DNA from: Kutzneria sp. 744
GTDB taxonomy: Bacteria > Actinomycetota > Actinomycetes > Mycobacteriales > Pseudonocardiaceae
Length of the DNA: 53,424 nucleotides
Direction of reading: 5' to 3'
Assembly: GCF_000568255.1 (NCBI RefSeq)
Contig: NZ_KK037166.1
Span: forward strand, 10,578,272-10,631,695
Within the stretch, counting starts at the first letter, position 1. Every line of letters begins with the position of its first letter. The notes beneath the pieces were generated by a model. That model did not search any database. It was not told the origin of the DNA and was given only the letters and a program-made list of their open reading frames with translations. This document shows positions 27,198 to 52,917 of this stretch, one piece after another. The position numbers were made by a program, and so were the translations under genes.

Positions 27198-28523
27198 ATG
27201 AGCGCAGCTTTGCTGGACGCGCGTCTCGAAGCCGACGAGCTCACGATCCGCACACTCGCCGACTTCTCGGGCGTGGTCCGGGTGCTCGGCTCGAAGAGCT
27301 ACTCGAACCGCTACCTGGCAATCGCGTCTCTGTCCGGCGAGCCCACGACGATCGACGGAGCCCTGGTCTCCGACGACACCGTGTACCTGGCGCGGGCCAT
27401 CGAGCAGTTCGGCCACGCAAGGGTCACGATCGATGCGCCGAACGCGCGCTTCGAGGTGATCCCGACGGGGCAACCGATGCGGGCCCCGGAGGACGAGATC
27501 TACGTTGGCGCGGCGGGAACTCCGATCCGGTTCCTGATCTCGATGGCCGGCCACGCCAAGGGGATCAGCACGATAACCGGAACCAAGCGGATGCAGGAGC
27601 GTCCGATGGGGTCCCTTTTGGACGCCCTTCCGGCGCTGGGTGTAGACGCGGTCAGCGTTCGGGGCAATGGCTGCCCGCCGATTCAGGTGAAGGGCGGTGA
27701 CTTCCGGGGCGGGGCCACGCGTATCAGCGGCGCGGTCAGCAGCCAGTTCACCTCCAGCCTGCTGATCAACGCGATCCGCGCGCAGCAGGACGTCGAGGTG
27801 ACCATCATCGACGACCTGATCTCCAAGCCCTACGTGAACATGACGATCGCGGCGCTCGCCGAGATGGGTGTGCGTGTCGAGCGCGACGGCTTCACCCGCT
27901 TCGTCGTCCCGGCCGGTCAGAAGGTCCGCGGCGGCCAGGTCACCGTCGAGCCCGACGCCTCCGGCATGTCCTACTTCCTCGCCGTGGCGGCGGTTCTCGG
28001 CGGGCAGGTCACCATTCCGGGCATCGGCTCCGGGTCGCACCAGGGCGACGTCGGACTGGTCGACGCGCTGGTCAAGATGGGCTGCACCGCCGACGTCACC
28101 GAGAACTCGATCACGATCACCGGCGGCGAGCTGCACGGCATCGACATCGACATGGAGAGCATGCCGGACGTCGTGCCGACGCTCGCCGTGGTCGCGGCCT
28201 TCGCCAAGGGCACCACCCACATCAGCAACATCGCCAGCCTGCGGATCAAGGAGTGCGACCGCATCGCGGCCGTCACGGCCGAGCTGCGGAAGATGGGCAT
28301 CACCGTCGAGGAGCACCCGGACGCCCTGACCATCACCGGCGGCACACCGCACGGCGCGGTCATCGACACCTACGACGACCACCGGATCGCCATGTGCTTC
28401 GCAATCGCCGGACTGCGCACCGACGGCGTCGTGATCAAGGACCCGGGCTGCGTCGCCAAGTCCTTCCCGACGTTCTGGCAGACGCTGGACACTCTCTTCT
28501 CGGACGGCAAGAGCACCCGATGA
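27198..28523 (+). CDS. AroA (EPSP synthase)-like enzyme, probable arsenoenolpyruvate synthase
   Basis: A 441-residue member of the enolpyruvyl transferase family, starting at ATG 27198 after GAAGGGA. Hallmarks are kept: GSKSYSNR (K33, R38), AAGTPIRF (104-112, in place of NAGTAMR), RMQERPMG (131-138), SSQF (181-184), the catalytic Asp in MPDVVPT (D324), IKECDR (350-355), DDHRIAMCF (393-401) and a C-terminal Lys (K421). A shikimate enzyme is unlikely here because no aro genes are near and an iPGM-like gene is coupled to it by an ATGA overlap. An AroA paralogue beside a mutase and a CTP-synthase-like gene is the signature of the arseno-organic pathway proposed for streptomycetes, in which arsenic is joined to PEP. 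The arsenic substrate is inferred from context. Confidence 0.82.
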
Positions 28524-30349
28524 GCGCCTCCGCACGAGGAATCCTGCTGGTCCTCGACGGCTGGGGCGAGGCTCCGGCCGGCGAGGGCAACGCGATCGCC
28601 GCGGCGAAGACGCCGTATCTGGACCGACTGCGCGAGACGTGTCCGGCCCGCTTGGTCGAGGCGTCCGGCACTGCGGTGGGCCTGTTGGCCGGAGTCGTCG
28701 GCAACTCGGAGATCGGGCACATGGTCATCGGCGCCGGCAAGCCGGTGCCGTACGACAGCGTGCTGGTGCAGGAGCAGATCGACAACGGCGGCCTGCGCAC
28801 GAACGGTCTGCTCGCCGACATGTGCGCCCGGCTGGCCGAGCAGGACAAGGCGCTGCACCTGATCGGGCTGTGTTCGGACGGGATGATCCACGCCAATGTC
28901 GAGCACCTGCGGGAGATCCTGCTGGCGGTGGCAGCGCACGGCGTCTCCAAGGTGTGGCTGCACGCGATCACCGACGGCCGCGATGTGGCCGACGGCAGCG
29001 CCGCGGGCTACCTCGACCAGGTCGAGAAGTACACCGCCGAGGCCGGTGTCGGCCGGCTGGCCAGCGTGGTCGGCCGTGGCTACGCACTCGACAAGGCCGG
29101 CAATCTGGCCCTGACGAAGGAAGCGGGACTGGTGATCGCCGACGGCGTCGGCCGGCCGGTGCCGCGAGCCCAGGACGCCCTGGGACAGGGCAAGAGCGAC
29201 GAGTGGGTCGAGCCGTGCGTCGTGGCCGAGGCCCAGCAGGCCATCGGCGTAGGCGACGGCATCCTGTTCACGAATTTCCGCAGCGACCGGATCCAGCAGC
29301 TGGCCGACTTCCTTGTCGAGCATCTCGCCGACCGCGAGGTCACGGTGCGCAGCCTGGCCCAGTACGACACCAGGGCGGAGATTCCACCACTGGTGGGACG
29401 GGCCCGCACCGGCGGTGGCCTGGCCGAGGAGCTGGAACGGCACGGACTGCGCTCGGTCCGCATCGCGGAGACCGAGAAGTTCGAGCACGTCACCTACTAC
29501 GTCAACGGCCGGGACTCGGCGTCCAGGCCGGTCGAGCAGCACGTCCGGATCACCGCCGAAAGCCCTGCGGACTACCGCAAGCGGCCGGAGATGAACCTGG
29601 ACCTTGTGGTCGCCGCGGTCGTCGAACACGCGCGCCGGGACGAAGTCGATCTGGTAGTGGCCAACCTGGCCAACATCGACGTGGTCGGCCACACCGGCGA
29701 CTACGACGCGACCGTGCTGGCCACCGAGCACACCGACCGGGCGGTCGAGCAGATCTGCACGGCGGCCGCCGAAGCCGGGCGGTGGGTGGTGCTCGTCGGC
29801 GACCACGGCAACGCCGAGCAGATGATCACCAAGGACGTCGCCAAACGGCCATATGGCGGCCACACCACCAACCCCGTGCCGGCGGTGCTCGTGCCGGCGT
29901 CCGGCCAGGAGGTCACGGCCGCGGAGACGGCCGGCACGCTCGCCGACATCGCTCCCACGCTGCTGAACCTGCTCGGCTTGGCGGTGGGGGAGGAGATGAC
30001 CGGCCGGCCCCTGTGGGACTCGGCCGCCCATGTCCACTGTGGATCGTCCGGCACTGTGCTCCTGACCGCGGCTTTCGGTGAAGGTTCCACCATCAGGCCG
30101 GTGGACGTCGGTGCCGGTCTGCACGCGGTGCTGCGGACCAGCGAAGACGGTGCCAGTCACGTGCTGTGTGTGCACAACGGCAAACAGGAACCGGCCGTGT
30201 TCGTGCCCGGTGAGCATCTGCCCGGTGACACCAATGACCAGCTCGTATTCGTACACGGCGAGACCGTCACCCGAGCCCGCGGCGAAGACATCGAGTGCGT
30301 GCTCGAACCCGGCCGCCACGTGTGGCTCGGCCGAGCCGGCAAACAATGA
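28520..30349 (+). CDS. Phosphoglycerate-mutase-like enzyme with extra domain, probable arsonopyruvate-forming mutase
   Basis: Residues 1-500 follow cofactor-independent phosphoglycerate mutase of the alkaline phosphatase superfamily: metal ligand D13 in VLDGWG, nucleophile S63 in [31 protein letters not shown], and a second metal set in [10 protein letters not shown] and [12 protein letters not shown]. The usual substrate-binding stretch YYAMDRDxRWER is replaced by [14 protein letters not shown], which suggests a changed substrate. The protein has 609 residues against about 510 for the family; the last 100 form a beta-sandwich-like extension resembling the C-terminal domain of alpha-amylases. 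Translational coupling (ATGA) to the AroA-like gene supports a joint two-step conversion, arsenoenolpyruvate to arsonopyruvate in the published proposal. Confidence 0.8.
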
Positions 30350-30362
30350 GAGAGGACAGGCC

Positions 30363-31055
30363 ATGACCACGCGCCCCCGCCTGGCGCTCGTGGGTGACCA
30401 CAGCTCCACAGTGCATGCGCACGCACGGCTCGACGCCCTGGCTCCACATCTGGGTGTGCACGTCGACTGGGTGGCGAGCGACGCCGTCTGCGAGTCGATC
30501 GCCGACTACGACGGAATTTGGGTCGTGCCGGGATCGCCGTACGCGGACAAGGAAGCGGTGCTGTTCGCCATCCAGACGGCGCGGCTGCGCGGAATCCCTT
30601 ACCTCGGCACCTGCGGCGGTTTCCAGCACGCGCTGATCGAGTACGGCCGCCACGAGCTCGGCTTCACCGACGCCGACGACGTGCAGTACGACGCCGACGC
30701 GCCGACGGCGTTCATCACCCCGCTGGCGTGCTCGCTCGTCGGCGAGACCGCGCCGCTGCACCTGACCACGGGCAGCCGCCTCGCGTCGGTGTACGGCGAC
30801 TGCGAGAGCACGGTCGAGACCTATCACTGCAAGTACGGGCTCAACCCCGAGTACATCGACGCCATCGTGCACAGCCCGATGCAGATCACCGGCTGGGACG
30901 TGGAGAAGGCGCCGCGCGCAGTCGAGCTGCCCGACCACCCCTTCTTCATCGGCACCTTGTTCCAGCCGGAGTTGTCGTCCACGCCGTCGGCGGTGCACCC
31001 GCTGATCGACGCGTTCGTCGGCGCCGTGATCCAGAGAGCAGAACAGACCAGCTAA
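30363..31055 (+). CDS. CTP-synthase-related class I amidotransferase-like protein lacking the catalytic His
   Basis: A 230-residue stand-alone glutamine-amidotransferase fold, similar to the C-terminal domain of CTP synthase. The nucleophile elbow is YLGTCGGFQHA with C84, and VVPGSPYADKE forms the oxyanion strand. The triad His is missing: the family's QFHPE reads LFQPE (Q201, E203). NCBI-style naming for such proteins is CTP synthase C-terminal region-related (seleno)protein. Without His, ammonia release from Gln is doubtful; a thiol-based binding or transfer role using C84 is possible. The gene follows the mutase by 13 bases (GAGAGGACAGG as RBS), so it should act with the C-As bond-forming pair. 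Confidence 0.75.
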   Translation: MTTRPRLALVGDHSSTVHAHARLDALAPHLGVHVDWVASDAVCESIADYDGIWVVPGSPYADKEAVLFAIQTARLRGIPYLGTCGGFQHALIEYGRHELGFTDADDVQYDADAPTAFITPLACSLVGETAPLHLTTGSRLASVYGDCESTVETYHCKYGLNPEYIDAIVHSPMQITGWDVEKAPRAVELPDHPFFIGTLFQPELSSTPSAVHPLIDAFVGAVIQRAEQTS

Positions 31056-31081: not shown

Positions 31082-32137
31082 ATGGAAGTACTGGTGTTGG
31101 TGCTCGTGCTGGCACTGGCTGCGGCCAACGGTGCGAACGACGTTCCGAAGGGCGTGGCCACGCTGGCTGCGGCCGGTGTGACGAAGCTGCGCACCGCGAT
31201 CATCTGGGGCACGGTCACCACGGCGCTCGGGTGCCTGGTCTCGCTGACGTTCGCTGCGAAGCTCACCGCACTGTTCTCGAACGGCATCGTCTCCGCGAAG
31301 CCGACCGCCGGCTTCGCGGTGGCGGTGCTGATCGGAACGGCGGCGTGGGTGGCGTTGGCGACGTGGCGCAAGCTGCCCGTGTCGACCACGCACGCGCTGG
31401 TCGGCTCGCTGCTCGGCGCGGGGCTGGTGTTCGCGAGCAGCTCGCTGCACTGGGACGTGCTGCTGAACAAGGTCGTCGGCCCGCTGCTGCTGAGCGTGCT
31501 GGCCGCCTATGTCATCTCGGCGATCGTGTCCTACGGCAGCCGGGTCCTCGCGGGGCGGACCCTGGCCAAGGAAGTCGCCCAGGTGGCACTGCACGGCGAG
31601 TCGACCACCGAGCAGATGAGCGGCAGCGACACCAAGGTGTCCGCGCCGAGCGGTGTCGTGGCGCGCAGGCCGCGAAGCCTGACGGCGATCACCGGCGTGC
31701 ACTGGATGACCAGCGGATTCACCAGTTTCGCGCGGGGCATGAACGACGCGCCGAAGATCGTGGCCGTCGGGTCGTTCGCCCTGGTCGGCGGCATGACGCC
31801 GACGACCCTGCTGTTCGCGGTGACCGCGGTCATGGCGATCGGCGGCCTGCTTGGCGGCGCCCGTGTCGCCAGCTGCATGTGCTGCTGCGTCACGAAGATG
31901 TCGCACGTGAACGGGTTCGCCGCGAACCTCACCACCGCGGCGCTGGTCGGGCTCGGCGCGTTCCAGGGGCTGCCGATGTCGACCACCCACGTGTCGGTCG
32001 GCGCCATCGCCGGCACCGTCGGCCGGGACCTGCACCTCATCCAGCGCAAGACGATCCGGGACTTCGTGATCGCCTGGCTGGTGACTCCGCCTTTTGCCGC
32101 AGTGGTGGCCGCGGGGGCGTACCTGCTGGTGCGCTGA
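31082..32137 (+). CDS. PiT-family transporter with a CMCCC motif
   Basis: A 351-residue membrane protein with both inverted signature repeats of PiT phosphate permeases: NGANDVPKG (residues 16-24) and RGMNDAPKI (218-226), and two STTH motifs (PVSTTHALVG, PMSTTHVSVG). PiT proteins move phosphate, and often arsenate, with protons or sodium. After the seventh or eighth hydrophobic segment a Cys cluster, CMCCC (C265, C267-C269), precedes TKMSHVNGFAAN, a place where ordinary PiT proteins have no cysteines. The gene ends the first operon segment. Import of arsenate as precursor, or handling of a thiol-bound arsenical, are both inferred. Confidence 0.82.
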   Translation: MEVLVLVLVLALAAANGANDVPKGVATLAAAGVTKLRTAIIWGTVTTALGCLVSLTFAAKLTALFSNGIVSAKPTAGFAVAVLIGTAAWVALATWRKLPVSTTHALVGSLLGAGLVFASSSLHWDVLLNKVVGPLLLSVLAAYVISAIVSYGSRVLAGRTLAKEVAQVALHGESTTEQMSGSDTKVSAPSGVVARRPRSLTAITGVHWMTSGFTSFARGMNDAPKIVAVGSFALVGGMTPTTLLFAVTAVMAIGGLLGGARVASCMCCCVTKMSHVNGFAANLTTAALVGLGAFQGLPMSTTHVSVGAIAGTVGRDLHLIQRKTIRDFVIAWLVTPPFAAVVAAGAYLLVR

Positions 32138-32409: not shown

Positions 32410-33057
32410 ATGACGGAGACAGCCGAGACCGCCACCGACGGCGGCCTCGCCGACCTGGCCGACCGGTTCGACCAGGACCGCGCCATGGCCACCCTCACGG
32501 CGCTGTGCGCCGAGGACCTGGCCGGTCGTGGACTCGGCTCGCCAGGCCACGACCTGGCGAGCCGCTGGCTGGTCGCTCACCTGACCTCGATCGGGCTCGA
32601 TCCGCGATCGGACACCTTCGAGGTTCCCGAGGTGTTCCGGCTGGCGGAGGCGCCGTCGGTGACGGTCGATGGCGGCCCGCTCGCCGGGGAGCTCGAACAC
32701 CGCCGCGACTACGCGGAACACCCCCGCTCGGCCCGGATGGACGCACCGGCCGCCGGGACCGCGGTCCGCTGGGACGGCACTCCGGTGGCGGGGGCGTGGG
32801 CCGTCCTGGAGCGTGTTCCGCAGGGCACGGCGTTCGTCGAACTCGTCGACCAGGTCCGTGCCGCCGGCGGCGTCGGCCTGCTCACGCCCCAGGATCCGGA
32901 CGGCTCCGGATTCCTGACCAAGCGGACCGTCGGCGCGGGCGTGGTCCAGCTGCCGGTCGTCGCCGTGCGCAGCGACCTGCTCAAGCAGCTGGCCGGATCC
33001 ACCGTCACGGCATACGTGCCGCTCGTCCGGGCTGCGGCGACCGGTGCATATCCATAA
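32410..33057 (+). pseudogene. M28-type aminopeptidase, N-terminal half (split gene)
   Basis: After GGGGGGTGAC the ATG at 32410 opens a peptidase of the M28 family: a prodomain (RAMATLTALCAEDLAGRGLG and HDLASRWLVAHLTSIGL), then a protease-associated region (WAVLERVPQGTAFVELVDQV, GVGLLTPQDPDG, VVQLPVVAVR). It stops at 33057, before any zinc ligand. The catalytic half is encoded from 33159 in another frame. The break coincides with about 110 bases of AT-richer sequence. In the cluster an M28 enzyme would trim a peptide or amino-acyl conjugate. It is either a recent pseudogene or an artefact of assembly. Confidence 0.7.
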
Positions 33058-33724: not shown

Positions 33725-34078
33725 ATGGCCACCGCAGCGCCGTCCGTGTCCGCCCAGCTCATCCAGCTGTCCCCGGACATCCGTGACAGCCACAGCACGT
33801 TCACCGCCGGCTACCAGGACTTCTTCAACGCGGTCTTCAACGCCTCGGCCCTGGACCCGAAGACCCGCGCGGCGGTCGCGCTCGGAGCCGCCCTGGTGCA
33901 GGGGCGTGAGGAGACGGTGCGCTCGTTCCTGGCCGCGGCCAAGCAGCTCGGGCTGAAGAACGAGGAGATCGCCCAGGTCGCCGGCATCGTCGAGGCCCTG
34001 AAGGTGGAGGCCGTGCAGCGCCCCGCCACGACCGCGGCCGCCGCCCCGGCGGCCAAGAAGGCCAACGCCTGCTGCTGA
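33725..34078 (+). CDS. CMD/AhpD-like protein without the redox pair, ending in Cys-Cys
   Basis: A 117-residue helical protein with the carboxymuconolactone decarboxylase fold: LDPKTRAAVALGAALVQGRE, TVRSFLAAAKQLGLKNEEIA and QVAGIVEALKVEAV. AhpD-type members carry CxxCxxxH where this protein has GREETVRSF, so the thiol redox activity is gone. After an Ala/Pro linker the chain ends KKANACC, placing two adjacent cysteines at the extreme C-terminus. The start ATG 33725 follows GGCAAGGAGTAA. It could be a scaffold or carrier holding an arsenical on its tail (inference). It directly precedes the first ATP-grasp gene. Confidence 0.8.
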   Translation: MATAAPSVSAQLIQLSPDIRDSHSTFTAGYQDFFNAVFNASALDPKTRAAVALGAALVQGREETVRSFLAAAKQLGLKNEEIAQVAGIVEALKVEAVQRPATTAAAAPAAKKANACC

Positions 34079-34106: not shown

Positions 34107-35375
34107 GTGGCTGACAACGGCCTCACCCCGGCGAGGACGGTCGTCCTCATCGGTGGACGGGCGCAACGCGAATTCGATGTGCTGCGCGAACTCGGTTATC
34201 AGATCCTCAACGTCGACAGCCGGATCCCGCTGCACTGCATGATGTGGTCCGACGTCCCGCTCGACGCCGACGTGGACGACTGGGAGCAGGTGGCCAAGGC
34301 CGTCCGGGAGCAGCTCGACGACCAGCCGCCGGCTGCGGTGCTGACGCACGTCGAGCCGCGCATCCCGCTCATGGCCTACCTGTCCGAGCAGTTGCTGTCC
34401 GAGCACCGCGGGCTGACGGTGGCCACGGCGCTCAACTGCCGCGACAAGTGGCGGACCCGCAGCGGCCTCGCCGAAGCGGGATTGCCGGTGCCCGGGTTCG
34501 AACTCGTCGAGGACGTGGCCAGCGCGGTGCGGGCAGCCGAGGTGATCGGTTTCCCGGTCGTGGTCAAGCCGCGAGACGGCGCCGGCGCATTCGGCGTCAG
34601 GCGATGTGCCTCCGGGGACGAGGTCCGCGTCGCGGTCCAGAGCCTGCTCGATGATCCCGGACCGGGATCGCTCGCCGGTGTGCTGGTGGAGGAGTACATC
34701 GACGGGCCCGAGTTCGCGGTGCAGACGCTGACTCGTGACGGCGACACCGAGATCCTCAGCGTGTTCAGCCAGCACATGACCGAGCCGCCCGTGTTCGTCG
34801 AACTGAGCTACGAACATCCTTGTGGCCTGGACGAAGCTCGGCTCGCGGAGCTCAAGGCCCTGATGTCGTCGGTGCTGGACGTGCTCGGCCTGCGCGACTG
34901 GGTGAGCCATACCCAGGTTCGCTTGGGCAGCAACGGATTCAGCGTGGTCGAGGTCAACGCGCGCCGCCCTGGCGGTCGGTTGGTGGACATGACCACGGCA
35001 GTGTCCGGAGTGGACATGGTAGAGGCGGTGTCCCGCCTGGCGCTCGGCCTCCCGCCGACCGTCGGCGAGGTGCGGGCCAGCCACGCGCGGTACTCCAGCA
35101 TCGTGTTCGAGGAGGCCGGCACGCTGCTGTACAACACGCCGACCGCGGACCTCGACGCGATCGTGGAGCTTGAGGTCCCGTCCGGCGAGGCGGTGGAGGC
35201 CGTCGACCATCCCGAAGGCGGCGTCTACGGCCGGATCGTCGTGTTCGGCGAGTCCCCGGAGGAACTGGGGCGGACGGAACGGCAGATCCGGGATGCCCTG
35301 GCGTTGCAGGTGATTGCGTCGGACGACGTCGCGCCGAGCACGGCGGACAGTCGCGAGTTCAAGTCGTGCTGCTGA
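34107..35375 (+). CDS. ATP-grasp ligase 1, ending in Cys-Cys
   Basis: A 422-residue carboxylate-amine/thiol ligase of the ATP-grasp superfamily, starting at GTG 34107 after GAGAAAGGGA. A preATP-grasp Rossmann domain (TVVLIGGRAQREFDVLRELG) is followed by DKWRTRSGLAEAGLPVPGFE, ATP-binding FPVVVKPRDGAGAFGVRR and VLVEEYIDGPEFAVQTL, and the metal-binding VVEVNARRPGGRL. A C-terminal domain (about 310-405, with GGVYGRIVVFG) is like that of L-amino-acid ligases and carnosine synthase. The protein ends SREFKSCC. Such enzymes join carboxylates as acyl phosphates to amines, thus making dipeptides or amino-acyl carriers. Two relatives follow, so stepwise peptide assembly is likely. Confidence 0.85.
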   Translation: MADNGLTPARTVVLIGGRAQREFDVLRELGYQILNVDSRIPLHCMMWSDVPLDADVDDWEQVAKAVREQLDDQPPAAVLTHVEPRIPLMAYLSEQLLSEHRGLTVATALNCRDKWRTRSGLAEAGLPVPGFELVEDVASAVRAAEVIGFPVVVKPRDGAGAFGVRRCASGDEVRVAVQSLLDDPGPGSLAGVLVEEYIDGPEFAVQTLTRDGDTEILSVFSQHMTEPPVFVELSYEHPCGLDEARLAELKALMSSVLDVLGLRDWVSHTQVRLGSNGFSVVEVNARRPGGRLVDMTTAVSGVDMVEAVSRLALGLPPTVGEVRASHARYSSIVFEEAGTLLYNTPTADLDAIVELEVPSGEAVEAVDHPEGGVYGRIVVFGESPEELGRTERQIRDALALQVIASDDVAPSTADSREFKSCC

Positions 35376-35385: not shown

Positions 35386-36513
35386 ATGACCATGGCGAGT
35401 GTCGTCGCCGACACGGCGGACGGATACCGCGTCGATCTCGCGCGGGGAGTCGGCGAGATCGACCGGGAGGCGTGGAACGCGGTTGTGCTCGGCGGCGGCG
35501 GCAGTGTCTTCCACTCGTGGGAATGGCTCGCGGCGTTCGAGGAGGCGCCGCCGGGCGACTTCGAGCCGGCGCACCTGGTCGCGTACTCGGGCAGCCGGCT
35601 GGTGGGGATCTGCCCCGCGTACCTGGTGCACAGCTGTCCGCGGCTGGACTACCTCTGGTCGTTGAGCGGGATCTCGCCGGGCGGCCCGGTGCTGCTCGGA
35701 CACAGCCTGGCGGCCTTCTCGGGCGGACCGCTCGCCCTCGCCGAGCACGGTGACGTGATCGAGCTTCTCGTCGACCGGATGCAGTTGTCCGCCGACCAAC
35801 TCGGCGCCTGGGCGTGGGGATTCGCCAACCTCCCGCGCGGACCGCTGGTCGGGCGACTGCTCGGCGCCGGACATGCGGTCGCCCAGGTGACCAGCGCGCA
35901 CCGCTTGGAGACTCGCTATCGGTCCGCACAGGACTACTGGGCGACGCTCCCGGCCAAGCGGCGGCGCAAGCTGCTGCGCGAGCGTCGTGTCCGGCTGGAG
36001 CACGTCACTGTCACGGACGGCATGCCGGACACGGACACCTTGGTGCACTTGGTGCATACGCTGCTCACGGATCGCAGCACCCCGGTGGACGTGCTGCCGA
36101 GCTCGTTCCTGGAGTCGGTACGACGGCATCTCGCGCCGTTCGAGCGTGGTGTGATCGCGACGGACCACGACGGCGCCACCGTCGCGGTGTTCGCCGGCTG
36201 GGAGTTCGGCGGCGAGTGGTCGGCCTGGATCGCCGGCCTCGACACGGGTGTGCTCAGCTCCTTCGAGCCCTACCACCCGATGCTGGCCCACATCGTCGAG
36301 TCGGCCATCGACTCGGGCACCACCGTGGTGAACCTCGGTCGTGCGAACGCCATGCAGAAACGGCGTTATGGAGCCGAAGGCGTTCCGCTGTACCTCACAC
36401 TTCAGGCGTCCGACCCGCGGCAGGCGGCGACCCTCCATGCCGCGTGCCTGCGGATCGAGGACGCCGTCCGTGGCACCGACGATGTCGTCGGTGTGGTTCG
36501 GCGGTGCTGCTGA
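35386..36513 (+). CDS. FemAB/GNAT-like acyl(aminoacyl)transferase 1, ending in Cys-Cys
   Basis: A 375-residue protein of the FemAB-like (peptidoglycan-bridge/BioF2-like) GNAT group. The N-terminal half has FHSWEWLAAFEEAPPGDFEP and HLVAYSGSRLVGICPAYL; the C-terminal GNAT half has AKRRRKLLRERRVRLEHVTV, GVIATDHDGATVAVFAGWEF, SSFEPYHPMLAHIVESAID and NLGRANAMQKRRYGAEGVP. FemX-type enzymes move amino acids from aminoacyl-tRNA to peptides, and relatives use acyl donors. ATG 35386 follows GAGGTGGCTGAG, ten bases after the ATP-grasp stop. The end VVRRCC repeats the cluster's tail. A related gene lies at 47464. A role in extending a peptide is inferred. Confidence 0.75.
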   Translation: MTMASVVADTADGYRVDLARGVGEIDREAWNAVVLGGGGSVFHSWEWLAAFEEAPPGDFEPAHLVAYSGSRLVGICPAYLVHSCPRLDYLWSLSGISPGGPVLLGHSLAAFSGGPLALAEHGDVIELLVDRMQLSADQLGAWAWGFANLPRGPLVGRLLGAGHAVAQVTSAHRLETRYRSAQDYWATLPAKRRRKLLRERRVRLEHVTVTDGMPDTDTLVHLVHTLLTDRSTPVDVLPSSFLESVRRHLAPFERGVIATDHDGATVAVFAGWEFGGEWSAWIAGLDTGVLSSFEPYHPMLAHIVESAIDSGTTVVNLGRANAMQKRRYGAEGVPLYLTLQASDPRQAATLHAACLRIEDAVRGTDDVVGVVRRCC

Positions 36514-37700
36514 TGTCCATACTGAGCCCGGACTTCCGGCAGAGCGTGGCGTGCATCTCGGGCCGCCGCGTCGTCGACGTGCTTGCCGACATGGGCGTGC
36601 GCACCGTGCTGCTGGGCGACCCGACGCCGCTGGATCTGGCGTGCGTCGCGGACGTGCCCCTCGACATCGACCTAGGCGACTGGAACGCCACGGAGTCGGC
36701 GCTGGGCCTCTTGCACGGCGTGCACCCGCTTGACGCCGTTTTCAGCGTCTACGACGCCTATCTGCCCGTCGCGAGCTACCTCGCCGCCCGTCTCGGCGTG
36801 CGAGGGCTCGCGCTCGGCGCAGCCATCAACTGCAGCGACAAGGCCCGCATGCGACTGGCGCTGGCCGGCGCCGGCGTCGCCGTGCCCGACTTCGTCACCG
36901 CGGCAGAGCCCGCCGACGTGGAGTACGCGGCACGGCGGCTCGGCCTGCCGGTAGTGGTGAAGAAGACGACCGACGCGCGCGGACGCGGCACGCTGCTGTG
37001 CCGGAGCCTGGGCGAAGCCGAGGAAGCGGCCCATGTTCTCGGGCCGGGACCGTTGTTGGTGGAGCGGTTCGTCGACGGACCGGAGTTCGCGGTGCAGACC
37101 ATCACGGCGGACGGCGCCACCGAGATCGTCAACGTCCTCGCCCAACAGGTCGGGCCTGGACCGAGAATGGCCGAGGTCGGCTACGACTTCCCGAGCGGCC
37201 TCGGCGATGACGGCGACGGCCGGCTCGGGACGTTCGCCGCCGATGCCCTGCGGGCGCTGGGATTCGACGACGGCATCGCCCACCTGCAGGTGCGGCTCGG
37301 GCCGCTCGGCCCGGTCCTGATCAACGTCGCGGCCCGGCCGCCCGGTGGGCAGCTGTGCGCGCTCACCGAGCAGGTTTCGGGCATCGACATGACTCGCGCG
37401 GCCGCAGAGGTTGCCCTCGGGCGCGTGGTCACGCGGAAACCCGGCGCTGCGTCACGCGCGCTCTATCGGTGCGTCGCGTTCGACCACGGCGGCATCGTGG
37501 ACTACGACCGTACGGCCCTGGAAACCCCCGGAGTCTGGCTCGACATCGACCCGGGGGACCGGGTCCGGCCGGCGACGGACCCCCAGGGCGGCAGCTACGG
37601 CCGCATCGTCGTCTACGGCGACGACGCGGACCGACTGCGCGCGGACTACCTCGACATCCTCGACTCGCTCCGACCCCGGGTTCACCCGGACAACTCCTGA
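36513..37700 (+). CDS. ATP-grasp ligase 2
   Basis: A 395-residue relative of ligase 1, starting at ATG 36513 in a TGATG overlap with the transferase stop. It keeps the same order: SDKARMRLALAGAGVAVPDF, LPVVVKKTTDARGRGTLLC, LLVERFVDGPEFAVQTIT, LINVAARPPGGQL and the C-terminal GGSYGRIVVYGD. NVAARPPGG replaces NARRPGG, so one metal-ligand neighbour differs from the other two copies. It is the only ATP-grasp of the three without a C-terminal CC; it ends VHPDNS. Specificity should differ from its neighbours; its tight coupling implies fixed stoichiometry with them. Confidence 0.82.
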   Translation: MSILSPDFRQSVACISGRRVVDVLADMGVRTVLLGDPTPLDLACVADVPLDIDLGDWNATESALGLLHGVHPLDAVFSVYDAYLPVASYLAARLGVRGLALGAAINCSDKARMRLALAGAGVAVPDFVTAAEPADVEYAARRLGLPVVVKKTTDARGRGTLLCRSLGEAEEAAHVLGPGPLLVERFVDGPEFAVQTITADGATEIVNVLAQQVGPGPRMAEVGYDFPSGLGDDGDGRLGTFAADALRALGFDDGIAHLQVRLGPLGPVLINVAARPPGGQLCALTEQVSGIDMTRAAAEVALGRVVTRKPGAASRALYRCVAFDHGGIVDYDRTALETPGVWLDIDPGDRVRPATDPQGGSYGRIVVYGDDADRLRADYLDILDSLRPRVHPDNS

Positions 37701-37732
37701 CCCGGACAACTTCCAGATGGTGGGTGACATTG

Positions 37733-42927: not shown

Positions 42928-43147
42928 CGAGACGCAGGTGGGCGACCTGTTCTGGGCCGCGTCCAACGCCCAGCAGCTGCCCGTCGTCCAGCAGGAGGCC
43001 AAGAGCTCCTGCTGCGGCCCCAAGCCGGCCGCCAGCACGGAGAAGGCGGCCGCCCCGGCCGCGTCGTCCTGCTGCGGGCCGAAGCCCGCGGCGACCACCG
43101 AGGAGCCCGTCGAGGCGACGGCCAAGAAGAGCTCCTGCTGCGGCTGA
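42920..43147 (+). CDS. 75-residue mini-protein with three SSCCG repeats
   Basis: ATG 42920 lies inside the end of the exporter gene. After a short N-terminal part (MSSETQVGDLFWAASNAQQL) the chain is a low-complexity Ala/Pro/Lys/Glu linker with three SSCCG units (residues 29-33, 49-53, 71-75); the first two are followed by PKPAA. It looks like beads on a string, each bead a vicinal dithiol, ending at the last CCG. There is no signal peptide and no family I know. Multivalent As(III) or Cu(I) binding, or a scaffold for product assembly, would fit; coupling to the ABC pair suggests delivery to the exporter (inference). Confidence 0.78.
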   Translation: MSSETQVGDLFWAASNAQQLPVVQQEAKSSCCGPKPAASTEKAAAPAASSCCGPKPAATTEEPVEATAKKSSCCG

Positions 43148-43181: not shown

Positions 43182-43604
43182 ATGACCAGGGCGCGAACGG
43201 CCGCACTCGTACCGGCGGCCGCGCTCCTCGTCGCCGTCCTGGCCGGCTGCGGGCAGGGTGCGGCCAGCCAGGAGCCCACGAAGACGTGCACGGACAGCAA
43301 GGCCAGCAGTGGGTTGACGATCACGTTGGCGGCGCCCTGCCCGATCAGAGGTGGTGAGTCCGCGACCGCGCACATCACGGTCAAGGACTCCAGCGGCACC
43401 GCGGTCAAGAACGCGACGGTCAAGCTGACCACCGACATGCCGGCGATGAACATGCACGGTGGCGACCAGACCGCCACGGCCAGCGGCGACGGTTACGACT
43501 CGAAGATCGTGCTGGGCATGGGCGGCGACTGGAACGTCACGGTCCAGGTCAGCGGTGGATCGACCTCGTCGGCCAGCGCGCAGTTCACGCTCTCGGCGAA
43601 GTGA
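43182..43604 (+). CDS. Lipoprotein with YtkA/FixH-like domain, probable metal binder
   Basis: A 140-residue lipoprotein from ATG 43182 (GAAGGTGAAC upstream). The lipobox is LAGC (C23). The mature part is an Ig-like YtkA/FixH fold (GLTITLAAPCPIRGGESATA, VKNATVKLTTDMPAMNMHGG, YDSKIVLGMGGDWNVTVQV), where MPAMNMHGG supplies Met and His as in periplasmic copper-binding domains. Two cysteines (KTCTD, APCPI) may form a disulfide. Anchored outside the membrane, it may pass copper to or from the CopA/YcnI/CopD set downstream. Confidence 0.8.
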   Translation: MTRARTAALVPAAALLVAVLAGCGQGAASQEPTKTCTDSKASSGLTITLAAPCPIRGGESATAHITVKDSSGTAVKNATVKLTTDMPAMNMHGGDQTATASGDGYDSKIVLGMGGDWNVTVQVSGGSTSSASAQFTLSAK

Positions 43605-43613: not shown

Positions 43614-44804
43614 ATGATCAGCCGGCGGGCGGCGGGCCTTCCGCTGTCGAGCACCGCGACTCTGGACGCGCACGTCAAGAAGCTGGCCGCGGAGGGCGTC
43701 GACGTCATCAACCTCACCGGCGGTGAGCTGGACTTCCCGACGCCCGATGTCGCCTGCCGGGGCGGCATTGACGCCATCACGAGCGGATTCACCCGCTACA
43801 CGGCGGTGTCCGGGATCGCTCCGCTGCGACAGGCCATCGCCGAGCGCCTGACCGAGAAATGGCGGTGTCCTTACGAGGGCGACGACGTGGTCGTGACCAA
43901 CGGGGCGAAACAGGCCCTGGCCAATGCCTTCGCCGTGCTGCTCGATCCCGGTGACGAGGTGATCCTGCAGGCGCCGCACTGGGTCAGCTTCCCGCACATG
44001 ATCTCCCTCGCCGGCGGTGTTCCGATCGTCGTGGAGACCGACGCCGGGACGGGGTTCAAGTTCGACCGTGACGCGATAGTGGACCGGATCACGGTGCGCA
44101 CCAAGGCATTGCTGATCAACAGTCCGTCCAATCCGACCGGTGTCGTCTATAGCCGGGCCGAGCTGACGGCGCTGGCCGAGTTGGCCGCCGAGTACAACCT
44201 GGCCATCGTCAGCGACGAGATCTACAGCGACCTCGTGTACGGCGGGGTGGAGTTCACCAGCGTGGCCTCGCTCGGCGCGGACACGCGATCCCGGACCATC
44301 ACGGTCGGCGGCTTCTCCAAGACCTTCGCCATGACCGGCTGGCGGGTCGGCTTCGCCGCCGGACCGCGCCCTGTCATCGCCGCGATGTCGGCGTTGCAGG
44401 GGCACACGACCTCGGCCCCGTCGTCGATCTCCCAGCGCGCCGCGCTCGCCGCGCTGGTGGACGAGCCGATCCAGGAGTTGGCGGACCGCAAAGCCGAGCT
44501 GGAGCGGCGCCGGCGGCTCACCTGTGACGGACTGGCCGATCTCCCAGGACTCCGGCTGGCGGTCGAGCCGGAGGGCGCGTTCTTCGCCTTGGTCGACGTC
44601 AGCGGAACCTATGGCCGCCAACACGACGGCGTGGAGATCAAGGACGCGGCGACGTTCGCCGAACGCCTGCTGCACGAGGTCCAGGTCGCCGTCATGCCCG
44701 GCGCCGACTTCGGCGTTCCCGACCACATCCGGATCTCCTACGCGGTCGGCGCGGCGGAGATCACCGAGGCATTCCGCAGGATCCGAGCCTTCCTGACCAC
44801 GTAG
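43614..44804 (+). CDS. PLP-dependent class I/II aminotransferase
   Basis: A 396-residue fold-type I aminotransferase like AspB/AspC-type enzymes, from ATG 43614 after GAGGGGGTGTC. It contains NLTGGELDFPTPD, TNGAKQALANAFAVLLDPGD, the cofactor-binding NSPSNPTGVVYS, IVSDEIYSDLVYGG, the PLP lysine in VGGFSKTFAMTGWRVGFAAG, and the substrate Arg near HIRISYAVG. In the arsenic pathway it is the obvious candidate to convert arsonopyruvate into 3-arsonoalanine, an amino acid usable by ATP-grasp ligases. That assignment is inference; ordinary aspartate or alanine aminotransferase activity is not excluded, but the placement in the island argues for a dedicated role. Confidence 0.85.
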   Translation: MISRRAAGLPLSSTATLDAHVKKLAAEGVDVINLTGGELDFPTPDVACRGGIDAITSGFTRYTAVSGIAPLRQAIAERLTEKWRCPYEGDDVVVTNGAKQALANAFAVLLDPGDEVILQAPHWVSFPHMISLAGGVPIVVETDAGTGFKFDRDAIVDRITVRTKALLINSPSNPTGVVYSRAELTALAELAAEYNLAIVSDEIYSDLVYGGVEFTSVASLGADTRSRTITVGGFSKTFAMTGWRVGFAAGPRPVIAAMSALQGHTTSAPSSISQRAALAALVDEPIQELADRKAELERRRRLTCDGLADLPGLRLAVEPEGAFFALVDVSGTYGRQHDGVEIKDAATFAERLLHEVQVAVMPGADFGVPDHIRISYAVGAAEITEAFRRIRAFLTT

Positions 44805-44819: not shown

Positions 44820-45038
44820 ATGAGCACGACGACCTACTCCGTCCTGGGCATGACCTGCGGCGGCTGCGCCAAGCGCGTGCGCACGGCGATCGAGACGGAC
44901 CTGCCGGGCCTGTCCGAGATCCTCGTCGACCCGAAGGCCAACGAGGTCCGGATCACCGCGGATGCCCCGGTTTCCGAGGACGCCCTCAAGGCGGCCGTGG
45001 AGAAGACCGGTTATGAGTTCGCCGGAGCGGTGGCGTGA
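44820..45038 (+). CDS. copZ: CopZ-like copper chaperone (HMA domain)
   Basis: A 72-residue heavy-metal-associated domain: TYSVLGMTCGGCAKRVRTAI contains the MxCxxC metal site, followed by the ferredoxin-like beta-alpha-beta pattern and KTGYEF. It would deliver Cu(I) to the HMA domain of the ATPase downstream. It ends in a GTGA overlap with a tiny membrane protein gene. RBS AAAGAGGA precedes ATG 44820. Confidence 0.9.
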   Translation: MSTTTYSVLGMTCGGCAKRVRTAIETDLPGLSEILVDPKANEVRITADAPVSEDALKAAVEKTGYEFAGAVA

Positions 45039-45133: not shown

Positions 45134-45157
45134 ACCGTCCATAGGGAGTGAGGGGAA

Positions 45158-47467
45158 ATGTCGGTACCGACGGCGATGCCGAAGGCGGTGGTCACCCTTG
45201 ACATCGGCGGCATGACCTGCGGGTCGTGCTCGGCTCGCATCGAACGCAAGCTCAACCGCATGGACGGCGTCGAGGCCGAGGTCAACTTCGCCACGGAGCA
45301 GGCCCGCGTCTCCTTCGACGTCGGCGTGACGGTCGACGACCTGATCGCCACCGTCGAAGCCGCCGGATATACGGCGGCCTTGCCGGTGCCCGAGCCGTCC
45401 GGGACGGACGAGCCGAAGCGCGATGCGGCCGAGGACGAGCTGAGCGCCATGCGCCGCCGGATCCTGGCGTGCACCGCACTGGCGATCCCCGTAGTCGCGA
45501 TGGCGATGATCACCCCCTTGCAGTTCACCAACTGGCAGTGGCTCTCGCTGACCCTGGCGGCGCCGGTCGCGACCTGGGGAGCGTGGCCGTTCCACGTCGC
45601 GGCCTGGAAGAACCTCAAGCACGCCACCGGCACCATGGACACGCTCATCTCCCTCGGAGTGATCGCCGCCTTCGGCTGGTCGCTCTACACCCTGTTCTTC
45701 GGCTTCGCCGGCCTGCCCGGTATGCGCATGCCGTTCCTGATGGTGCCGACGAGCGGCCAGGGTCTGCACCATATCTACTTGGAAGTGGCCACCAGCCTGA
45801 CCGTGTTCATCCTTGCCGGCCGCTACGCCGAGCACCGGGCCAAGCGCCGCGCCGGCACCGCGTTGCGGGCCCTGCTCGAACTCGGTGCGAAGGACGTGAC
45901 GGTGCTGCGCGGCGGGGCCGAGGCGACTGTGCCGATCGGTCAGCTCCGCGTCGGTGACCAGTTCGTCGTCCGGCCCGGCGAGAAGATCGCCACCGACGGC
46001 GTTGTCGTGGACGGGAGCTCCGCCGTCGACGCGTCGATGCTCACCGGCGAAAGCGTCCCCGTGGAGGTGACCGCGGGCGATCCGGTCACCGGCGCGACCG
46101 TGAACGCCAACAGGCGCCTCGTCGTGCGCGCCCTGCGGGTCGGGGCCGACACCCAGCTCGCCCACATCACCCGGCTGGTGACCGAGGCGCAGACCGGCAA
46201 GGCGCCGGTGCAGCGGCTGGCCGACCGGGTCGCCGCCGTCTTCGTCCCGGTCGTGATCGCCCTCGCGGTGGCGGCATTCGGCTTCTGGCTGGGCAACGGC
46301 GCCGACATCGCCGCCTCCCTCACCGCCGGTGTCGCGGTCCTGGTCGTCGCCTGTCCGTGCTCCCTCGGACTGGCCACACCGACTGCGCTCCTGGTCGGCA
46401 CCGGTCGCGGCGCGCAGCTGGGCATCCTGATCCGGGGCCCGGAGATCCTGGAGTCGACCAAGAAGATCGACACCGTCGTGTTGGACAAGACCGGCACAGT
46501 CACCACCGGCAAGATGACCCTGGTCGAGGTGGTGCCCGCGAACGGCGTCGAGACCGAGGACGTGCTGCGGCTGGCCGGCGCCCTGGAGAACGCGTCCGAG
46601 CATCCGATCGCGGCCGCGATCGCGAGTGCTGCGCGCGAGAAGTTCGGCACGCTGGAGACCGTCACGGCCTTCGAGGGCACGGCCGGGCTCGGCGTCACGG
46701 GCGAGGTGGACGGCAAGGCGGTGCTCATCGGCCGGTCCAGCTGGCTGGCCGAGCGGCTGTCCGTGCCCGAGGAACTGGCTCAGCCGCTGACGGACGCCGA
46801 GCGTCGCGGCCAGACCCCGGTGTCGATCGGATGGGACGGTCGGATCCGAGGAATCCTCACTGTCGCCGACACGACCAAGCCCACCAGCGCCGAGGCGGTC
46901 GCGCACCTCCGGCGGCTTGGGCTGCGCCCAGTTCTGCTGACCGGGGACAATGCCCGTGCCGCTCGGACGATCGCGGCGCAGGTCGGCATAGAGGACGTGG
47001 AGGCCGAGGTGCTGCCGGCCGACAAGGTGGCGGTGATCCGGAGGCTCCAGCAGGAAGGCCGTTCGGTCGCCATGGTCGGCGACGGCGTCAACGACGCGGC
47101 CGCGCTCGCGCAGGCCGATCTGGGCATCGCGATGGGTACCGGCACCGACGCCGCGATCGAGGCCAGCGACATCACGCTCGTGCGCGGCGATCTGCGCGAC
47201 GCCGCCGACGCCGTCCGCCTATCACGGCGGACTCTCGGCACGATTCGCGGCAACCTGTTCTGGGCCTTCGCCTACAACGTCGCCGGCATTCCGCTCGCCG
47301 CCGCCGGTGTGCTCAACCCGATGATCGCCGGCGCGGCCATGGCGCTGTCCAGTCTGTTCGTGCTGTCCAACAGCCTGCGCCTACGCGGATTCCGGGCCAG
47401 CCAGAGCACGTTCTCCGGCGATCCGGTGAACGCGGAGGTCGGCGCGCGCGAGATGTCTCCGGTATGA
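45158..47467 (+). CDS. copA: Copper-exporting P1B-type ATPase
   Basis: A 769-residue P1B-1 ATPase. The N-terminal HMA domain has [16 protein letters not shown]. After two early helices come the actuator TGES ([12 protein letters not shown]), the metal-site CPC in [17 protein letters not shown], the phosphorylated Asp in [11 protein letters not shown], the HP locus in [13 protein letters not shown], and the hinge [20 protein letters not shown]. These features specify Cu(I) efflux. It begins 24 bases after the small membrane protein and ends in an ATGA overlap with a FemAB-like gene, which ties copper handling to the unusual transferase. Confidence 0.93.
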
Positions 47468-48390
47468 GAACCGTGGCATTGGGACTGCCGGTCGCCGTTG
47501 TCGACGTCGCTGAGGCGCTCAACGGCGACTGGCGGGCCCACCGGCACTCCGTCGACGTAGTCCGCGTGCAGGACCCGCCGCCGCTGCTGTGGGATTCCCT
47601 TGCGGCCGCCGGCTTCCGGCCCAAGCCTCAGGTCGTGACCTGGCGTGCCGCAACGGCTTCGGACGAGGAGCAGTTCCTGTCCGGCCTGGCTCGTAAGGAC
47701 AAGCAGAACATCCGCATCGCCCGACGGCGGGCGCGGGCCGACGGCCTGACCATCACGGTCCGCCCGGTCGACGCCGGGTTGATGGACGCCTTCCTGCCGC
47801 TGTACGAGGCGCAGGTAGCCCGCATGGTGCACGGCTGGTCGGTCGCCACCGAGCACCGCGACCGGGTGCTGGCCGAGGCCGATGACTACTTCGCCGTGTG
47901 CGCCTGGGACGGCGACATCCTGGTTGGAGCGAGCATCAACCAGCAGTCGCGAGAACGGGACGAGGTCAGGGCGCGGTTCTCCGCCGTCGTAGCCGACCAG
48001 CGCCAGGCCAGCCTGACCCGCGTGCTCTACCTGGAGGTCGTGCGGGAGGCCCGGGAACGCGGCTTTGCCATGGTGAGCCTGGGCAGCGATCCCAACCTCT
48101 ACGGGCACCTGGTCAAGCCGGGGCTGTTCAGCTTCAAGAGCCGGCTCGGGTTCGTGCCGGTCCCGTCGCACCTGGTGGATCCCGACTCCGGATCGGACCA
48201 GGCCGACCGAGTCGTCGGGTTCGACGCGATCACCGATCCGTCCTTCGTGCTCTCGTACGCGCAGGGCGTTCGCGGGCCAAGTCTTGCCCTGGACCTGTAC
48301 ACCACCAAGCCCGGCATCGATCTGCGTCCGTACACAGTGGACCATCTCGCCGACGTCCGTGTGCACCAGCTGGAAGGAGACCGGCCATGA
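47464..48390 (+). CDS. FemAB/GNAT-like acyl(aminoacyl)transferase 2
   Basis: The ATG at 47464 overlaps the copA stop. The 308-residue product resembles the C-terminal half of FemAB/BioF2-like GNAT transferases: [78 protein letters not shown] and [16 protein letters not shown]. It is shorter than transferase 1 and lacks a CC tail. It sits inside a copper gene set, with ATGA overlaps on both sides, where no transferase would be expected. It may add a residue to a copper- or arsenic-binding peptide (inference). Confidence 0.72.
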
Positions 48391-52020: not shown

Positions 52021-52038
52021 ATATTGACATTCTTCGAT
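52021..52038 (-). promoter_or_regulatory. ArsR-type operator candidate
   Basis: Directly upstream of the arsR start, the plus strand reads ATATTGACATTCTTCGAT. TTGACA-N4-TCGAT patterns are common in actinobacterial ArsR sites. No longer dyad was found. Confidence 0.4.
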
Positions 52039-52071
52039 CCAGGCGGCCAGGGTGTGAACGGGTGTCGTCCG

Positions 52072-52917
52072 CTACTCCGCCGGCGTTGCCGTGCGGCGTT
52101 CCAGGAAGACCGTGTCGCGCCAGCGGCCGTGGTGCTGGGCGATGCGTTCCCGCACGCCGATCGTGCGGAATCCGGATTGGCGGTGCAGGGCGAGGCTGGC
52201 CTTGTTCTCGGGGAAGATCGAGGTCTGCAACGTCCACAGCCCGGTGTCGTCGGCGGCGCAGACCTGCTGGCGCAGCAACGCTTTTCCGACGCCGCGGCCG
52301 CGAAATCCGTCGCCCACGTACACGGAAGTCTCGGCGACGCCGGCGTAGCAGTCGCGTGTCGAGACCGCTGTGGCCGCGGCCCAGCCCGCGACCTGGCCGT
52401 CGACCTCGGCCACCCAGCGGTGGTCGCGCAGCCAGTGCTGCTCCAGGTAGTCCTGAGCGGGGACTTCGGTCTCGAACGTGGCGTTGCCGGTGGCGATGCC
52501 CTCGCCGTAGATGCGCAGCACCGTCGGCCAGTCCTCCTTGCGCAGCGCGCGAACCACGACGTCCGCCGGGGCTTCCGGGCAGCACGGCTGCGCCGACAGC
52601 ATGCCCATCACCGCGTCGGCCGCCTGCGGCAGGCCGGTGCAGCACGCCTCGTTCACGGTGACCACCGTCGCGGTGCCGCGCTTCTGCACCAGGACGAAGC
52701 CCACCTTCGTCAGCCACTGCACGTGGTGGGAGCACGTCGACTGGCCGATGCCGAGCAGTGAGGTCAGCTCGCCGACGGTCAGGCCGTCCGGTGACGTCGC
52801 CACCGCGTGCAGCAGGCGGACCCGCGTGGGCTCGGCCAGGCAGCCGAACCAGTGTGCGTAGGTCTCAGCCTCGCCGGGGTCGAGCAGGCGGCGCTGCTCC
52901 TCGTGCGTTGTCGTCAC
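52072..52917 (-). CDS. ArsR-ArsN fusion: metalloregulator plus GNAT acetyltransferase
   Basis: A 281-residue two-domain protein. Residues 1-105 are an ArsR-type winged helix (LGIGQSTCSHHVQWLTKVGF) with thiols in NEACCTGL and QPCCPEAP rather than the CVCDL motif. Residues 115-275 are a phosphinothricin-acetyltransferase-like GNAT: VRALRKEDWPTVLRIYGEGI, ATFETEVPA, TSVYVGDGFRGRGVGKALL with the acetyl-CoA loop, and NKASLALHRQSGFRTIGV. ArsN1-type enzymes acetylate the amino group of arsinothricin and so detoxify it. A product-resistance gene of this kind fits an island that makes an amino-acid arsenical. It is divergent from the flavoprotein at 53016. Confidence 0.85.
   Translation of the reverse strand: MTTTHEEQRRLLDPGEAETYAHWFGCLAEPTRVRLLHAVATSPDGLTVGELTSLLGIGQSTCSHHVQWLTKVGFVLVQKRGTATVVTVNEACCTGLPQAADAVMGMLSAQPCCPEAPADVVVRALRKEDWPTVLRIYGEGIATGNATFETEVPAQDYLEQHWLRDHRWVAEVDGQVAGWAAATAVSTRDCYAGVAETSVYVGDGFRGRGVGKALLRQQVCAADDTGLWTLQTSIFPENKASLALHRQSGFRTIGVRERIAQHHGRWRDTVFLERRTATPAE

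Follow-up and report, generated by a model that had tools for sequence, protein, structure and literature searches.

We have analysed a 53,424-nucleotide stretch (hereafter, the window) of the genome of Kutzneria sp. 744, which is 11.65 Mb in one contig, and we propose that it probably contains a cluster for the biosynthesis of a peptide-like organoarsenical, built on the trunk of bisenarsan (the bsn system of Streptomyces lividans and S. coelicolor) and assembled with the help of Cys-Cys arms. The cluster starts from an AroA-like enolpyruvyl transferase, which would convert arsenate to arsenoenolpyruvate in the role attributed to BsnM, and an iPGM-like mutase, which like BsnN would turn arsenoenolpyruvate into arsonopyruvate. 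An aminotransferase would then make arsonoalanine, pulling an unfavourable rearrangement forward, as suggested by its alternation with a decarboxylase in related loci. Three ATP-grasp enzymes of the L-amino-acid-ligase type and two FemX/FemAB-like transferases (the families are established here, the substrates predicted) would add amino acids, and an ATP-binding cassette (ABC) pair would export the product. The arsenic would probably be trivalent during assembly, and the Cys-Cys tails of ATP-grasp 1, ATP-grasp 3, Fem1 and a CMD protein, together with a small protein of SSCCG repeats, could bind the arsenical as a dithiolate and carry it from one active site to the next. Pathways are known for few of the organoarsenic natural products of bacteria. 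This locus, found with named genes in four genomes, would add to the carbon-arsenic route a transamination branch with a predicted arsonoalanine and, possibly, a family of arsenic peptides. If true, the Cys-Cys arms would constitute a novel strategy by which biosynthetic enzymes deal with a toxic metalloid, and they offer a searchable signature for further clusters of this kind.

A conserved block of 18 genes

Eighteen genes, at approximately 25.8-48.4 kb of the window, have the same order and orientation in all four clusters compared, namely that of the window and those of three Streptomyces genomes, G273 (Streptomyces sp. CB00316), G885 and G970. The order is luxR, aroA, iPGM, ctpS, M28, CMD, ATP-grasp 1, Fem1, ATP-grasp 2, ATP-grasp 3, two ABC halves, SSCCG peptide, YtkA, aminotransferase, HMA, Cu ATPase and Fem2. 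Identity of the Streptomyces block proteins to those of the window goes from about 43% to 78%, and the core is constant while the flanking resistance genes differ among the four clusters. ATP-grasp 1 was found (E 1e-60) in 3 of 392 Streptomyces genomes, the seed G273 being one of the three, in 1 of 249 genomes of the family and in 1 of 394 of the class, the latter two being each time the Kutzneria genome itself; the three genome sets are draws from larger groups. To judge from these comparisons, the cluster type is rare, yet it recurs intact in another genus. The genes concerned are the following, in window coordinates:

20916..21290, minus strand: ArsR-family regulator; its best match, at 66-67% identity, stands just before luxR-aroA in the three Streptomyces clusters
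25789..27099, minus strand: LuxR-type regulator (weak GerE match, E 6e-4), divergent from aroA, in 4/4 clusters
27198..28523, plus strand: AroA-like (BsnM-like) enolpyruvyl transferase, proposed arsenoenolpyruvate synthase (Pfam EPSP_synthase, E 6e-114)
28520..30349, plus strand: iPGM-like (BsnN-like) mutase, proposed to form arsonopyruvate; Ser and metal-site motifs present
30363..31055, plus strand: CTP-synthase glutaminase-like protein; Cys kept, His changed to Gln
31082..32137, plus strand: PiT-type phosphate/arsenate permease, without counterpart in the other three clusters; also in loci L029 and L030
32410..33722, no strand assigned: interrupted M28 peptidase gene, in pieces 32410-33057 and ~33117-33722
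33725..34078, plus strand: CMD/AhpD-fold protein, C-terminus ...AKKANACC
34107..35375, plus strand: ATP-grasp ligase 1, L-amino-acid-ligase type, C-terminus ...SREFKSCC
35386..36513, plus strand: Fem1, FemX-like aminoacyl transferase, C-terminus ...RRCC
36504..37700, plus strand: ATP-grasp ligase 2, without CC tail
37724..38980 (start approximate), plus strand: ATP-grasp ligase 3, C-terminus ...HTSCC
39321..41012 (start approximate), plus strand: ABC exporter half 1
41005..42927, plus strand: ABC exporter half 2; its 3' end overlaps the start of the next gene
42920..43147, plus strand: SSCCG-repeat peptide, 75 aa; N-terminus with FW, two SSCCGPKPAA repeats and a terminal KKSSCCG
43182..43604, plus strand: YtkA-like putative lipoprotein
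43614..44804, plus strand: class I/II aminotransferase, proposed arsonopyruvate transaminase
44820..45038, plus strand: HMA copper-chaperone-like protein
45158..47467, plus strand: Cu(I)-type P1B ATPase with CPC, AYN and MxxSS, which we take to be Cu(I)-type motifs
47479..48390 (start approximate), plus strand: Fem2, second FemAB-like transferase and last gene of the block

Most of these genes had been named in a first-pass annotation made from the sequence alone, which proposed a route from arsonopyruvate through arsonoalanine to a peptide-like arsenical. The aminotransferase, the three ATP-grasp proteins, the two Acetyltransf_6/FemAB-like enzymes and the two-gene ABC exporter that it listed are all present, and the coupling that it described for aroA and iPGM consists of an ATGA overlap. 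The CTP-synthase-like gene lies downstream as reported, although it encodes only the glutaminase-like half. An ArsN-type acetyltransferase domain is indeed found at 52072-52917, but it is fused to ArsR, scores 140 bits against a cut-off of 170 and is located outside the conserved block. The PiT transporter, the interrupted M28 gene, the CC-tailed CMD protein, the SSCCG peptide, YtkA, HMA and the Cu(I)-type P-ATPase had been omitted from that list. The M28 gene is broken at 33058-33165 by about 100 bases that contain stops and have a GC content of 45%, compared to ~70% on either side; in G970 and G273 it is uninterrupted, as a single long open frame.

The AroA-like and iPGM-like trunk

The loci used for comparison come from the best 80 of 567 relatives found in a contig search, 21 of which are from actinomycetes (L013-L033, with L013 being G273); the other 59 of these 80 were checked for partner genes only. 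Among 81 plasmid records, the best one, which was also the sole one above 60% identity, was opened as a cluster (L012). This gives 25 distinct actinomycete loci (L012, L014-L033 and the four ATP-grasp clusters), all read within flanks of mostly 10 kb a side. The AroA-like protein of L003 (G012) is identical to that of L030 ('Pseudonocardiaceae bacterium YIM PH 21723'), and L003 was counted only in the AroA tree.

In this tree of 55 rows, the AroA-like protein belongs to a clade of 26 actinomycete rows, two of them identical, with a support of 99 in the Shimodaira-Hasegawa-like approximate likelihood-ratio test (SH-aLRT), and the four owners of the ATP-grasp cluster group together (SH-aLRT 99). 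This genome's housekeeping AroA is placed among the housekeeping copies of other actinomycetes, far from the AroA-like protein, to which the genome's other AroA is 37% identical. The tree is a quick maximum-likelihood one made with IQ-TREE, without bootstrap, and S. lividans BsnM itself is absent from it. Such a tree had been suggested in the first-pass annotation, and the branching with housekeeping 5-enolpyruvylshikimate 3-phosphate (EPSP) synthases that would have spoken against its proposal was not seen.

An iPGM-like gene adjoins aroA in 25 of the 25 loci. When 29 iPGM sequences were scanned, the GNSE serine motif was present in 28 (the miss is a partial match, in L053), DHGN in 29, D-x-x-GH in 26 and H-x-x-NPVP, as written, in 21; all four motifs are present in the four ATP-grasp clusters. 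The C-terminal extension of the window protein (30025-30349, ~100 residues) corresponds to a separate small gene after iPGM in L012, L019, L022 and L029. The CTP-synthase-like protein scores 255 bits against NF004836 (cut-off 260). All 19 homologues examined keep GTCGG and have Gln (FQPEL) at what we take to be the position of the catalytic His of the CTP-synthase glutaminase, and on this ground we rejected a glutamine-amidotransferase role.

Around the aroA-iPGM pair of the window there are ArsR genes, together with ArsO and ACR3 over their cut-offs and an ArsC-like gene under its own. According to the available portion of PMC12159101, bsnM, bsnN and bsnJ are all needed for the arsenical in S. 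lividans, and the decarboxylase of bisenarsan is proposed to act on arsonopyruvate. That portion of the review describes bisenarsan as the sole product of the carbon-arsenic route that is independent of S-adenosylmethionine (SAM). Taken together, the comparisons make a trunk that would lead from arsenate to arsonopyruvate well supported.

A molybdopterin oxidoreductase gene (23203-25704) is located near the block, with copies of 66-75% identity in many aroA-iPGM loci. What it acts on is not indicated by any family over cut-off; it may oxidize arsenite.

An aminotransferase in place of a decarboxylase

A phosphonopyruvate-decarboxylase gene was found in 14 of the 25 loci and an aminotransferase gene in the other 11 (L012, L022-L026, L029 and the four ATP-grasp clusters), with no locus having both or neither within the flanks read. 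Decarboxylase genes were detected by tblastn with the L014 protein, which scores 355 bits against the TIGR03297 cut-off of 312, and the 14 include a partial match at the end of L031. This search gave no match in the four ATP-grasp clusters, in agreement with the first-pass annotation, and in the whole Kutzneria genome no protein passes TIGR03297, the best of the weaker matches having 46 bits. The 11 aminotransferases form one clade (SH-aLRT 98), and the next best aminotransferase of the genome is 39% identical to that of the cluster. In the aminotransferase tree, the duplicate fragments L115, L118 and L119 were left unlabelled and the automatic count gives four changes, though the 11 labelled rows and these three all fall in one clade.

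Because of this strict alternation, we infer that the aminotransferase replaces the decarboxylase and makes arsonoalanine. An equivalent arrangement is found in phosphonoalamide biosynthesis where, according to the part of PMC11867202 available, a transaminase acts at the same place on phosphonopyruvate and two ATP-grasp ligases form the peptide. The transamination branch from arsonopyruvate to arsonoalanine is well supported by comparison, and arsonopyruvate, arsonoalanine and then a peptide remains the simplest reading, as the first-pass annotation had put it, with the peptide end at the level of the plausible.

The ATP-grasp ligases and the FemAB-like transferases

In sequence comparisons with solved structures, the L-amino-acid ligase BL00235 comes first for ATP-grasp 1 and 2 and second for ATP-grasp 3, whose nearest match is 4dim (named phosphoribosylglycinamide synthetase). 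A structural model of ATP-grasp 1, with a mean predicted local distance difference test score (pLDDT) of 83.7, also has BL00235 as its nearest Foldseek match (E 1.5e-27 and 4e-27 for two chains), followed by 4dim, BacD and RizA. After the L-amino-acid ligases, the nearest solved structures are D-Ala-D-Ala ligases and ATP-grasp enzymes of the purine pathway. Graspetide ligases are related to RimK-type ligases, which appear lower among the PDB matches listed; no entry named as a graspetide ligase is among those matches, and no graspetide-ligase profile was run. The Fem1 profile gave no match among sequences of solved structures, so a model (mean pLDDT 73.7) and a fold search were used; the nearest structure was FemX of Weissella (Foldseek, E 1e-10, template-modelling score 0.55), FemX being a transferase that uses aminoacyl-tRNA. 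These sequence and fold relationships make a peptide end product plausible.

A Cys-Cys signature

The SSCCG peptide is in the block of the four genomes, always with a conserved N-terminus, near-identical repeats and variable linkers, and it has three to four CC pairs (four in G970 and G273, three in G885). A profile of the four peptides matched, in an equally large draw of 392 Streptomyces genomes, only the three that own ATP-grasp 1. A simple gene caller missed the peptide of G273, which was found by other comparisons including this profile. The peptide matches no Pfam family at E 0.01 and no NCBIfam family at E 0.1, with no metallothionein, ArsD or HMA match.

Furthermore, CMD, ATP-grasp 1, Fem1 and ATP-grasp 3 end in Cys-Cys in 4/4 genomes; ATP-grasp 2, Fem2 and the aminotransferase do not. 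Such ends are found in 4 of 19 genes of the window block and in 0 of 349 closed control genes from 20 stretches of 20 kb elsewhere in the same genome (Fisher 5e-6), and at least two CC pairs are found in 0 of the 362 genes called in those stretches. In both models the tail has a pLDDT below 50 (residues 365-375 of Fem1 and 411-422 of ATP-grasp 1). Among NCBIfam families, CMD matches best the arsenite-methyltransferase/AhpD double selenoprotein (E 4e-12), with 46 bits where the cut-off is 510, and in the part of PMC13188914 available a Cys-Cys-COOH selenoprotein is listed among proteins mostly implicated in metal or metalloid resistance.

The seven aminotransferase loci without ATP-grasp genes all have a FemAB-like enzyme with five to nine CC pairs, consisting of an N-terminal CC array, two internal pairs and a CCG end. 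These fused-array proteins constitute one homologous family:

L012:16533-18002: fused-array FemAB-like protein
L022:6409-8010: fused-array FemAB-like protein
L029:6704-8089: fused-array FemAB-like protein
L023-L026: further members of the family

They are 51-97% identical to the L022 protein, on which alone the Pfam run was made, and five of the seven are 74-97% identical. At E 1e-10, neither the 14 decarboxylase loci nor the four ATP-grasp clusters gave a homologue. Thus one cluster type has CC repeats on a free peptide, and in the other they are part of a transferase.

The Cys-Cys tails, the SSCCG peptide and the fused arrays may be flexible dithiol arms for trivalent organoarsenicals during their assembly. 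We put forward, more tentatively and as something that we hold to be possible rather than probable, a carrier-protein logic in which the SSCCG protein and the tails would keep the arsenical bound as an As(III) dithiolate while it grows by the addition of amino acids, by analogy with thioester carrier proteins and with LysW, which holds amino groups; in the sister clusters a similar array would be built into the FemAB-like enzyme. The C-terminal Cys pair of MerA (mercury) and the metallochaperone ArsD are also cases of flexible vicinal thiols from which an active site receives a soft metal or metalloid, the likeness being functional only, as no sequence relation to the SSCCG peptide was found.

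The ArsR-ArsN1-type fusion at 52072-52917 has two CC pairs between its domains and near full-length homologues in L030 and L033.

Alternative explanations

The SSCCG protein could instead be the precursor of a ribosomally synthesized and post-translationally modified peptide, with a leader containing FW and tandem cores that the ATP-grasp and FemAB-like enzymes modify, the M28 peptidase cuts and the ABC pair exports, the arsenical being a side chain or a bound atom. The conserved N-terminus, near-identical repeats, variable linkers and three to four CC pairs would suit a precursor, its start overlaps the end of an ABC gene, and it co-occurs with ATP-grasp genes. We consider this explanation unlikely, because the ATP-grasp proteins are nearest to ligases of free L-amino acids by sequence, ATP-grasp 1 also by fold, and the PDB matches listed include no entry named as a graspetide ligase, though RimK-type ligases come lower down. 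Moreover, a tether accounts better than a product for the fusion of CC arrays to a FemAB-like enzyme in the seven sister loci and for the single tails of four enzymes, the fused array of L022 lacks the CCGPKP form of the peptides, and the M28 gene is interrupted in the window. To a similarly low degree we credit the possibility of a joint resistance island for arsenic and copper, in which the SSCCG protein would be a metallothionein-like sponge and the enzymes would detoxify arsenate to a small exported arsenical. In fact, the window has a Cu(I)-type ATPase, HMA, YtkA, YcnI, CopD, four ArsR genes, ArsO and an ArsN-like gene, and ACR3 and an ArsC-like gene are just beyond it. However, three ligases and two FemAB-like enzymes kept in the same order in four genomes exceed the needs of detoxification, and it is the flanking resistance genes that vary among the four clusters, not the core.

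It is very improbable that the AroA-iPGM pair acts on phosphate, giving phosphonoalanine peptides without a phosphoenolpyruvate (PEP) mutase. Phosphonoalamide is the closest biochemical parallel, the EPSP-synthase residues are kept and phosphate-type transporters are close by, but ars genes surround the loci and the cysteine pairs suit As(III) and not phosphonates, a preference of vicinal thiols that is established thiol chemistry. The need for bsnM, bsnN and bsnJ to make an arsenical in S. lividans (PMC12159101, available portion) is also contrary to a phosphate substrate. Least credible of all is a merely coincidental neighbourhood around an AroA-like protein that would be an extra EPSP synthase of housekeeping type. 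It does pass the TIGR01356 aroA cut-off, but its clade is separate from the actinomycete housekeeping enzymes, an iPGM gene is its neighbour in 25/25 loci and the genome has another AroA of such low identity; we rejected this explanation on the basis of the tree and the second genomic copy.

Several points weigh against the organoarsenical peptide pathway that we prefer. Across the 26 rows of the AroA-like clade, 21 EPSP-synthase positions (presumably in the numbering of the E. coli protein) are invariant except 94 and 336, and they therefore do not reveal the acceptor. The aminotransferase/decarboxylase split corresponds to two changes on the AroA tree and therefore gives modest independent evidence. 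Because L022-L026 are close kin, the seven fused-array loci amount to about three lineages; judging from identity, these enzymes are largely close kin and the independent events are few. A CC at the end or a few residues from it is found in 23 of the 402 genes called in L012-L033, including ArsI-like and flavoprotein genes, so it is a trait of wider arsenic neighbourhoods and not specific to a pathway. The interruption of the M28 gene in the window may mean that the pathway is impaired there or independent of M28, and we identified no reductase for the step from As(V) to As(III). Finally, CC pairs can also bind copper and other soft metals. The HMA protein and the Cu(I)-type P-ATPase (44820-47467) are inside the block in 4/4 genomes and were not found in other aroA-iPGM loci within the flanks read, and these conserved proteins, with YtkA, could point to copper.

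Comparison with known systems

The cluster resembles bisenarsan in its AroA-like and iPGM-like pair and in its arsenic regulation and resistance genes. In the AroA tree, an unresolved fork (SH-aLRT 89) joins the window group to the decarboxylase loci L014-L021, L027 and L028, which we took as bsn-like. Unlike bisenarsan, the window has no decarboxylase and, in agreement with the first-pass annotation, no polyketide synthase domain among the 30 window sequences scanned (20919-52917, the first 20.9 kb being outside the scan), and it has the aminotransferase, three ATP-grasp and two FemAB-like enzymes, the SSCCG peptide, the CC tails and the copper genes. The lack of these two features lowers the likelihood that the product is bisenarsan, not that arsonopyruvate is formed. 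Phosphonoalamide (PnaA aminotransferase, PnaB and PnaC ATP-grasp ligases, PepM) shares with our proposal an unfavourable mutase step pulled by transamination and followed by ATP-grasp ligation, and the window does have an aminotransferase together with ATP-grasp ligases of the L-amino-acid type; it differs in the arsenic expected here and in the extra FemAB-like enzymes and dithiol arms. The PEP mutase family (PepM) was not found among the 30 scanned sequences, no dedicated genome search having been made. For arsinothricin-type (arsQML) chemistry, which we rejected, there was no radical SAM or SAM methyltransferase family among the same sequences.

The seven sister loci L012, L022-L026 and L029 share the aminotransferase clade, a LuxR-type regulator, a CTP-synthase-like protein and a FemAB-like enzyme, but no ATP-grasp gene and no free SSCCG peptide were found in them, and their fused-array FemAB enzyme is only remotely like Fem1 (22%, E 0.003). 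The SaoC and ArsM_AhpD_UU families, as they appear in the part of PMC13188914 available, also have a vicinal Cys/Sec pair, with an AhpD-type domain in one of them; these are names from a selenoprotein survey, whereas here the pairs are only of Cys, and they occur in ligases, in a transferase and in a separate repeat peptide. 'Arsonoalanine' was not found in a search of the literature covering open-licence papers, nor does any of the titles and abstract openings listed there describe the cluster type. As bsnMN neighbourhoods vary widely according to the available text of PMC12159101, an earlier mention of the cluster type is possible. The trunk, then, is of the known bsnMN type; its combination with three ligases, FemX-like enzymes and dithiol arms was not found among the papers listed in that search.

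Related loci in other bacteria and a possible operator

A metagenome-assembled genome (MAG) of Kangiellaceae has a row of genes (L073:1346-11365) for a permease nearest to SaoE (under cut-off), an 82-residue protein ending in CCG, aroA, pst-like genes (read from translations), iPGM, an ATP-grasp protein and an aminotransferase. This is a possible gammaproteobacterial counterpart of the cluster; its aminotransferase is outside the 11-member clade. Two planctomycete-labelled MAGs (L046:3983-12720 and L047:5834-12744) have aroA-iPGM with a decarboxylase over cut-off some kb away, and a MAG of Rhodospirillales (Alphaproteobacteria; L053:1006-8354) has aroA-iPGM with a decarboxylase nearby by tblastn. 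To go by these gene neighbourhoods, the bisenarsan trunk may extend beyond actinomycetes.

The luxR-aroA gap of the window was searched for a near-palindrome around GTTGCC-GGCAAC, which was not found there; it is common to the corresponding gaps of G273, G885 and G970, where it is a possible operator.

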